DNA of 64,000 bases, from NCBI RefSeq assembly GCF_900100255.1, contig NZ_FMTS01000001.1:806001-870000 (forward strand), in the 5' to 3' direction. This document shows, piece after piece, positions 21,492-22,889 of the stretch. Made by a program: the position numbers and the translations under genes. How positions within the stretch are numbered: the first letter of the stretch is position 1; every line of letters starts with the position of its first letter. The notes beneath the pieces are model-generated. The model was not told the origin of the DNA and searched no databases. It was given only the letters and a program-made list of their open reading frames with translations. Source of the stretch: Asticcacaulis taihuensis. Lineage in GTDB: Bacteria; Pseudomonadota; Alphaproteobacteria; Caulobacterales; Caulobacteraceae.

Positions 21492-22442
21492 TTAGTCGAA
21501 CAGGGCGTCGATATCGTCCTGCGAATTGGTCTTGCCCATATCTTCGGCGGGAATATCGAACAGAGCGTCGATATCGTCCTGGGAATTGCTTTCAGCGGCT
21601 TCCGGTGCGGCGGCCTGGGGCGCAGGTGCCGGAACTGGGGCCGGAGCGGGTGCCGGTTTTGGCGCCGGCGCGGGTTGCGGCTTCGGTTCGGGTGCCTTGG
21701 CGACAGGGGCAGGCGTTGGCGCCGGAGCGGGCTTGGGTGCCGGTGCCTTGGCAGCCAGGGCGTCGGCCTTAACAGGCGCTTCATCAAAGCCCGAATCAAA
21801 CATGGCGTCGATAGCGTCCTGCTTTGTTTCCGGACCACCGATAGCCGGACCGTTAAGCAGCAGGTCGTGGCGGCGCTTTTCTTCCGCGGTCATTTCCTGC
21901 GGCGTCGAATCCTCGACCCCCAGGGTATTGGCCAGCTTGCCGACGCGCTCCTCGATCTGCTTCAAGACGTTCACCACCTTCGACACGCGCTGGCCGGTGA
22001 TATCCTGGAACGAGCAGGCTTCAAAAATCTTCATGACCTCGTCATCGACCGCAGCCTTGTAGGCATTGGCGTCTCCGCCGAACTGGTCGATCGAGAAGCC
22101 CATCATGGCCTCAGCCGAATTCATGATGTTGTGGGTGGCGTTTTCGGTATCGCGGGTAATGGCTTCGAGTTCCGCGCCGGCGGTGGGGATACGTTCCTGC
22201 GAAATGTCGTGAGGACGCATTTCGCGGATTTCTTCCTTCGCCTTGGCAATATAGCCGGCGATGACGCTGAATTCTTCCGAGCGGCGCTTGTCCAGTTGCT
22301 GGAAGAAGCCGCGCATCAGGGCCACAAGCGCCTCGGATTGCTGCATCAGGTTGATGAGCTTGGGCTCAAGCTCGCCGACCATGGCGGGATCAAACCCTTC
22401 CGGTGCGTAACCTTCGTCTGATTTTGATGCTGGCAGGGCCAT
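21492..22442 (-). CDS. cheZ: CheZ-type CheY-P phosphatase with tandem CheY-docking-like motifs
   Basis: A 316-aa protein with a helical CheZ-like domain (about residues 20-175) and a long tail. The catalytic pattern FQDITGQRV carries Asp147 and Gln151, equivalent to Asp143 and Gln147 of E. coli CheZ, which dephosphorylates CheY-P. The tail has a KQDAIDAMFD motif (207-216), a Pro/Ala/Lys linker (about 233-280) and two identical SQDDIDALFD motifs (287-296 and 307-316), the last forming the exact C-terminus. These resemble the CheY-binding peptides of FliM (SQxEIDALL) and of CheZ itself. AGGA precedes the start by 6-7 nt. It lies 60 nt downstream of cheY on the same strand, most likely in one transcript. 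Confidence 0.88.
   Translation of the reverse strand: MALPASKSDEGYAPEGFDPAMVGELEPKLINLMQQSEALVALMRGFFQQLDKRRSEEFSVIAGYIAKAKEEIREMRPHDISQERIPTAGAELEAITRDTENATHNIMNSAEAMMGFSIDQFGGDANAYKAAVDDEVMKIFEACSFQDITGQRVSKVVNVLKQIEERVGKLANTLGVEDSTPQEMTAEEKRRHDLLLNGPAIGGPETKQDAIDAMFDSGFDEAPVKADALAAKAPAPKPAPAPTPAPVAKAPEPKPQPAPAPKPAPAPAPVPAPAPQAAAPEAAESNSQDDIDALFDIPAEDMGKTNSQDDIDALFD
21495..21824 (-). repeat. Three repeats encoding (S/K)QD(D/A)IDA(L/M)FD in the CheZ tail
   Basis: The copies lie at 21495-21524, 21555-21584 and 21795-21824. The first two are nearly identical in DNA, and the third differs at a few bases. They encode the acidic-hydrophobic peptides described for the CheZ-type gene. Confidence 0.85.
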
Positions 22443-22502
22443 TGTAATCCTACTTTTTAGACGAGACGTGTCTTTGAGAGACGGTTTAGCACGCGCCAGG
22501 GC

Positions 22503-22889
22503 TTAGAAATCGCCGAGAACGGCGGTGATCTTTTGCTTGAGAGTCGCCGCGTTGAAAGGTTTAACAATGTAATTGTTAACGCCGGCTTTCTTGGCAGCAA
22601 TAACGTTTTCCGTCTTGCTCTCGGCCGTGACCATGATGAATGGCGTACGCTTCAGGCCGTCATCGGCACGAACCTTGAGCAACAGTTCGTAGCCCGTCAT
22701 CGGTTCCATGTTCCAGTCGGAGATGACCAGGCCATAAGAACTCTTCTTCATCTTGTCGAGCGCTTCGGTGCCATCCGAGGCCTCTTCAACATTCTCGAAA
22801 CCAAGCTGCTTCAGCAGATTGGAAATAATACGCAGCATGGTCTTGTAATCATCAACTACCAAGACCGGCATGGACATATCGATGGCCAT
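22503..22889 (-). CDS. cheY: CheY-type single-domain response regulator
   Basis: A receiver-only protein of 128 aa (from the ATG at 22889) that should control the flagellar switch. The acidic pair is in VLVVDDYKTMLRI, the phosphoacceptor Asp in LVISDWNMEPMTGYELL, the switch Thr in FIMVTAES and the Lys in YIVKPFN. DWNMP-like sequence and LGFENVEEASDG are close to the CheY type of chemotaxis rather than of general two-component regulators. A GTG 12 nt upstream could extend the frame, but GTGGGG would then be coding instead of the ribosome binding site. The CheZ-type phosphatase gene follows on the same strand. Confidence 0.93.
   Translation of the reverse strand: MAIDMSMPVLVVDDYKTMLRIISNLLKQLGFENVEEASDGTEALDKMKKSSYGLVISDWNMEPMTGYELLLKVRADDGLKRTPFIMVTAESKTENVIAAKKAGVNNYIVKPFNAATLKQKITAVLGDF

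Follow-up and report, generated by a model that had tools for sequence, protein, structure and literature searches.

A CheZ-type phosphatase with three predicted CheY~P-docking peptides in Asticcacaulis taihuensis

In E. coli, the main affinity of CheZ for CheY~P lies in a short C-terminal helix that is carried on a flexible tether, and the cooperativity of the enzyme toward CheY~P has been modelled with CheZ networks in which each subunit provides a single hook (both from PMC1447658). CheZ and FliM in general occupy one and the same face of CheY, and the contacts made to CheY by the FliM N-terminal peptide include Q8, I11, D12 and L14 (PMC3774744). In Caulobacter, the N-terminal peptide of FliM is bound by the CheY-like protein CleA, and its interaction with CleD has been seen by NMR; when ID is changed to WA in the peptide ERILNQDEIDSLLG, which includes NQDEIDSLLG, CleA binding is lost in a two-hybrid assay, and CheY is likewise expected not to bind the ID-changed peptide (PMC5677366). 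The model organism of the family, Caulobacter crescentus, is reported to be without CheZ, and phosphate sinks have been proposed (PMC10579534).

The locus described here lies in a window of 64,000 nucleotides of the Asticcacaulis taihuensis genome, by which we mean the whole stretch of DNA that was analysed. On the minus strand it carries cheY (22503-22889; 128 aa plus stop) and, directly downstream after a gap of 60 nt, the gene of a CheZ-type phosphatase (21492-22442; 316 aa plus stop). The two genes together make up the span 21492-22889 given in the first-pass annotation, which placed cheY next to the phosphatase without stating the strand. Upstream of cheY, four patterns for a CtrA-type box were tried, and a single TTAAC was found but no full box. 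The translation of cheZ contains every peptide that the annotation had listed, all encoded on the minus strand. The catalytic stretch FQDITGQ (aa 145-151; 21990-22010) aligns to E. coli CheZ without gaps, and LLNGP (aa 195-199; 21846-21860) forms a conserved landmark ahead of the docking peptide. Motif 1, KQDAIDAMFD (aa 207-216; 21795-21824), is homologous by position to the C-terminal CheY-binding peptide of E. coli CheZ and is followed by a Pro/Ala/Lys/Glu-rich linker (aa 217-286; 21585-21794) that varies in length and sequence. The tail then ends with motif 2, SQDDIDALFD (aa 287-296; 21555-21584), a spacer of 10 residues, IPAEDMGKTN (21525-21554), whose length is kept in 25 of 25 orthologues, and motif 3, again SQDDIDALFD (aa 307-316; 21495-21524), which forms the exact C-terminus and is identical in all 25 orthologues.

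The assignment to CheZ rests on profile and structure-linked searches. In a profile search with the Pfam model of CheZ, PF04344, the protein reaches 41.1 bits (cut-off 30.7), with residues 118-215 matching positions 100-198 of 203, that is, the second half of the profile only; among solved structures its best relative is the CheZ of E. coli (1kmi_Z, E 1e-7, phmmer). The alignment pairs D147 and Q151 with positions 143 and 147 of the E. coli chain, which we take to be the catalytic residues. In an alignment of 70 CheZ sequences, 11 columns are invariant; they include F145, D147, G150 and Q151 of the catalytic stretch, G198 and P199 of LLNGP, and Q208 and D212 of motif 1 (numbered as in the present protein). 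The NCBIfam CheZ equivalogs NF008368 and NF041271 give 40.2 against a cut-off of 257 and 14.7 against 350; this places the protein within the CheZ family but not among the curated equivalogs. A FliM domain (PF02154) is absent from it in the Pfam scan, and the five Pfam families matched up to E 1 include no CheC-type domain (CheC/CheX/FliY). In CheZ proteins a long helical hairpin makes up a four-helix bundle in the dimer; for the present protein, AlphaFold2, run on a CheY-CheZ read-through as one chain (pTM 0.35), places helices at 169-223, 226-263, 274-292 and 294-323, corresponding to CheZ 20-74, 77-114, 125-143 and 145-174. Taken together, the PF04344 score and the 1kmi_Z match support the identity that had been given to the protein at first sight, with phosphatase activity as the prediction.

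Not all three docking-like peptides are novel in kind. The alignment to E. coli CheZ continues through LLNGP into KQDAIDAMFDS against SQDQVDDLLDS, so that motif 1, as judged from the aligned sequences, is homologous to the peptide with which E. coli CheZ is known to bind CheY. By the same comparison, motifs 2 and 3 are extra copies on the far side of the Pro/Ala/Lys/Glu linker. The original description of three docking-like peptides is borne out as a count; motif 1 is the ordinary CheZ peptide, however, and the additions are two rather than three.

Motifs were counted with the regular expression Qxx[IVL]Dx[LMI][FLMI]. The tails of the 25 genus orthologues contain 83 matches, where shuffled tails give 0.015 in total and reversed tails none at all; the class tails together hold 130 matches against 0.19 expected by chance, and the CheZ protein cores of the class yield a single match in 24,325 residues. 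At the level of DNA, a strict pattern finds four places in the whole 3.97-Mb genome, three of them in cheZ and one in another protein, presumably RpoC; read backwards, the same pattern finds no place in the whole genome. A looser DNA pattern, QDx[IV]DxL, finds 12 places (backward control: 1), among them cheZ twice, fliM (NQDEIDSLLG) and a peptidase-like protein whose VQDQIDTLSK is without the last hydrophobic residue; the remaining eight sit in frames that by eye are not gene-like. Chance repetition of a short motif is ruled out by the shuffles, the reversed tails, the core counts and the conservation of the copies.

This conservation can be followed through the genus. Uncorrected pN/pS proportions over the 25 orthologues, some of which come from close kin, are 0.16 for motif 1, 0.12 for motif 2 and 0.07 for motif 3 (10-codon motifs and hence small samples), 0.15 for the core, 0.31 for the spacer and 0.47 for the linker, which has a pairwise identity of 0.52. 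In every one of the 25 orthologues, motif 3 starts exactly 20 residues after the start of motif 2, while the length of the linker varies. This fixed register, together with conservation far above that of the linker, argues for selection on every copy and also on the pairing of motifs 2 and 3. A reservation applies to motif 3, whose pS is 0.28 against 0.54-0.71 in the other regions, so that its constancy may partly be a DNA-level or small-sample effect. Motifs 2 and 3 are identical at 27 of 30 bases; a recent duplication at the DNA level was considered and rejected, since the pair is present at the same spacing in all 25 genomes.

The number of motifs differs between lineages. Among the 25 Asticcacaulis genomes searched, 17 encode three and 8 encode four. 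CheZ proteins of sister families in the same order have two motifs in all five loci examined (out of 8 strong order matches), with the motif starts 15-18 residues apart and no long linker. At the level of the class, 110 of the matches listed were sampled, mostly the better-scoring ones and with some genomes contributing two: 90 carry one motif, 18 two, one four and one none. In the last of these (L135) an in-frame TAG follows right after LLEGP, and there is no docking peptide. Beyond the Alphaproteobacteria, each of 30 CheZ proteins (the 30 best-scoring loci of a phylum sample) has exactly one motif, and all end in LGF. The first-pass annotation had named homologues that lack the motif yet keep CheZ activity as evidence that would count against its docking idea. 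For the motif as such this does not apply, since 109 of the 110 class matches have at least one; for the extra copies it does, and because 90 of the 110 proteins have a single motif, CheZ in general seems, as far as sequences can tell, to have no need of three.

A tree built from the CheZ core with the tail left out needs 6 changes for the split between single- and multi-motif proteins, compared with 25.3 for shuffled labels. It was built by a quick method (of its 117 inner branches, 33 are starred and 52 open), and 3 of the 6 changes are forced by starred branches; three proteins with degenerate or truncated tails (L118, L135, L180) were left unlabelled in it and kept in the count of 110. The multi-motif trait is inherited, but it was gained or lost on more than one occasion, gain and loss being indistinguishable.

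Several further CheZ proteins came to light in these searches. The four-motif CheZ of another alphaproteobacterial family (L124:612-1523, minus strand), with motif starts 123, 87, 67 and 9 residues from the end, is apparently a parallel case. The A. taihuensis genome itself has a second CheZ (C9:411007-411267; L100:9002-9598, minus strand) of 198 aa with one motif, NQADIDALFA. It sits between a response-regulator-like and a receiver-histidine-kinase-like frame, as judged by eye and by a receiver match, and is a paralogue that may serve another receiver. Across the family, 19 of the 119 genomes searched have a CheZ match, 18 of them above the cut-off, and 16 of the 19 are Asticcacaulis; this distribution would reflect either losses or a gain from outside.

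The presumptive partner of the tail is the neighbouring CheY, whose closest solved relative is itself a CheY (1d4z_A, E 5.8e-42). All 25 genus loci have cheY immediately ahead of cheZ; at the level of the class, 64 of 110 loci have a cheY-like frame whose end lies no more than 400 nt upstream of cheZ. The window CheY retains D12, D13, D57, T87, K91, Y106, V108, K109 and K119 of E. coli CheY and differs from it by A90S, K92T, I95V, A99K and K122A; its docking face is largely conserved. All three CheZ motifs have Q, I, D and L/M at the places where FliM makes its contacts, and the AlphaFold2 read-through draws a helix on each of them (357-365, 438-443 and 457-463) at low to modest confidence, with pLDDT values, in blocks of 10, of 60-61 for motif 1, 48-59 for motif 2 and 67-73 for motif 3. 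The window cheY-cheZ pair is on another contig than the sole match to a CheA domain in the genome (PF02895, C9:162943), which is near a different CheY-like gene (C9:165093); the CheY-like protein of that region (C9:162943-165434) is 35% identical to the window CheY.

We consider it probable that this CheZ, with its chain of three predicted CheY~P hooks (four in some relatives), acts as a multivalent tether that feeds the active sites. Each peptide would form a short helix on a flexible tether and bind the alpha4-beta5-alpha5 face of CheY~P, and the tether would then bring the bound CheY~P to the active site, which sits on the helix bundle of CheZ. If the protein is dimeric like E. coli CheZ, three peptides per subunit would amount to six per dimer. 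The rate of capture at low CheY~P should then rise approximately in proportion to the number of hooks, and several CheY~P molecules could be held off the motor at once. Several observations weigh against this reading: the Pfam match is confined to the second half of the profile, the NCBIfam scores are far below their cut-offs, the predicted structure of the tail is of low to modest confidence, the neighbouring CheY is altered at A90, K92, I95, A99 and K122, and one motif is all that most class CheZ proteins (90 of 110) and the second CheZ of this genome have.

The kinetic side of this proposal was explored with a simple capture-and-transfer model, in which the rate constants are assumed and only molecule numbers and cell size are taken from PMC1447658. 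When one active site is served by n hooks, turnover at low levels of CheY~P becomes about n-fold faster; at n = 3 the maximal rate goes up about 1.6-fold and the half-saturation point falls about twofold. The model shows no cooperativity: the log-log slope stays at or below 1.00, and the Hill value over 10-90% is 1.01-1.16. The suggestion, made when the motifs were first noticed, that multivalency would sharpen signal termination consequently finds no support when multivalency is taken on its own; sharpening would need either cross-linking of dimers or titration of CheY~P, and titration in the model matters at a Kd of 1-10 uM and little at 100 uM.

Of these two routes, cross-linking leads to the alternative that survives best, although we still regard it as rather unlikely. 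Since every subunit carries several hooks and an active site of its own, CheY~P captured by a hook of one dimer would be presented to the active site of another, giving rise to networks driven by CheY~P and to cooperative phosphatase activity. The same scheme has been proposed for E. coli CheZ with its one hook per subunit (PMC1447658), and additional hooks and a long linker would allow more connections. The result of the simple model, which has no bridging and shows no cooperativity, speaks in the same direction insofar as sharpening calls for such bridging or for titration. On the other hand, the E. coli network is itself a model resting on indirect data. An extended form of the idea, to which we give somewhat less weight still, casts the CheZ of Asticcacaulis and its relatives as a multivalent scaffold on which CheY~P, gripped by three or four hooks of each subunit and bridging adjacent dimers, would seed the assembly of its own phosphatase, with activity setting in cooperatively above a threshold of CheY~P.

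Titration is the basis of the next alternative, according to which the tail mainly draws CheY~P away from FliM, as a sponge or as a competitor of the motor, with catalysis as a secondary matter. The shared face of CheY (PMC3774744) is in line with it, as are concentrations: with E. coli numbers (PMC1447658), three hooks per subunit provide 11.3 uM sites against 9.6 uM CheY, and at a Kd of 10 uM and 30% phosphorylation, going from one hook to three lowers the free share of CheY~P from 0.76 to 0.50. At a Kd of 100 uM, however, the free share only changes from 0.96 to 0.90, and neither these E. coli numbers nor the Kd values need be those of the present organism. The catalytic residues are moreover intact and the core is strongly constrained, and we hold a role confined largely to titration to be unlikely.

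FliM itself bears on this alternative and on the earlier proposal that the tail mimics the FliM N-terminus. The one FliM match of the genome (C8:1196113) carries the same ERILNQDEIDSLLG as Caulobacter, and the FliM docking peptide is a single NQDEIDSLLG that is invariant in 25 of 25 genus genomes and differs in its letters from the CheZ motifs. In all 25 genomes, FliM has an N-terminal extension of about 60 residues, acidic, Trp-containing and Gly-rich, before NQDEIDSLLG. Because CheZ and FliM share one face of CheY, competition with FliM would be inherent in any CheZ; mimicry as a special trait of the present protein is weakened by the generality of this face-sharing and by a FliM peptide that is both distinct and invariant.

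The copies might also serve different receivers, one hook being reserved for the neighbouring CheY and the others for other CheY-like proteins, with CheZ as a hub. The genome holds 53 receiver matches to CheY, and its only CheA match is near a different CheY-like gene; the Caulobacter precedent of a FliM N-terminal peptide that is bound by CleA and interacts with CleD (PMC5677366) and the slight unlikeness of KQDAIDAMFD and SQDDIDALFD are also compatible with such a division of labour. Yet Y106, V108 and K119 do not occur together in any of the nine CheY-like loci that rank next in the genome, and motifs 2 and 3 are identical within the window protein, which leaves this reading improbable to about the same degree as the preceding one.

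Least of all do we expect motifs 2 and 3 to be neutral or redundant duplications, or anchors for a partner that is not a receiver: a low-complexity linker drifting in length, a copy number of three to four within the genus and the low pS of motif 3 (0.28), whose constancy could partly lie at the DNA level or in the small sample, would agree with this, but motifs 2 and 3 have a lower pN/pS (0.12 and 0.07) than the core (0.15), motif 3 does not differ among the 25 orthologues, the register is fixed, and the contact letters Q, I, D and L/M are present in every copy of the window protein; a different partner may still be anchored there.

The multivalent tether that we favour can be set beside four described or newly compared systems. 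E. coli CheZ (b1881, 1KMI) shares with the window protein the PF04344 core, the catalytic D and Q, a docking peptide (SQDQVDDLLD) that comes after LLNGP, and a cheY immediately upstream of cheZ, the last two features having been read in MG1655; it has a single C-terminal peptide and ends in SLGF, whereas the window CheZ has three peptides, two of them past a 70-residue Pro/Ala-rich linker. In the literature under open licence, no description of a CheZ with several docking motifs was found among the matches listed. The two-motif CheZ proteins of other Alphaproteobacteria (sister families of the same order; L106, L110, L112 and others) come nearer, having a proximal motif, a second one that ends exactly at the C-terminus and, in several cases, a Pro/Ala-rich linker between the two, but they stop at two motifs where the window CheZ has three. 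The N-terminal CheY~P-binding peptide of FliM resembles the CheZ motifs in being a short QxxIDxL(L/F) sequence and differs from them in occurring as a single NQDEIDSLLG, in contrast with the copies KQDAIDAMFD and SQDDIDALFD. The CheZ oligomer model of PMC1447658 likewise has a flexible tether between the active site and a hook for CheY~P; it has one hook per subunit in E. coli, compared with three here.

The tandem-hook CheZ is a real and conserved elaboration of a known enzyme and not a new system. Within a family whose model, Caulobacter crescentus, is reportedly without CheZ, one genus keeps this elaborated form, and natural CheZ proteins, whose hooks number from one to four within a single class and differ in number even within one genome, offer a series in which the effect of hook number can be tested.
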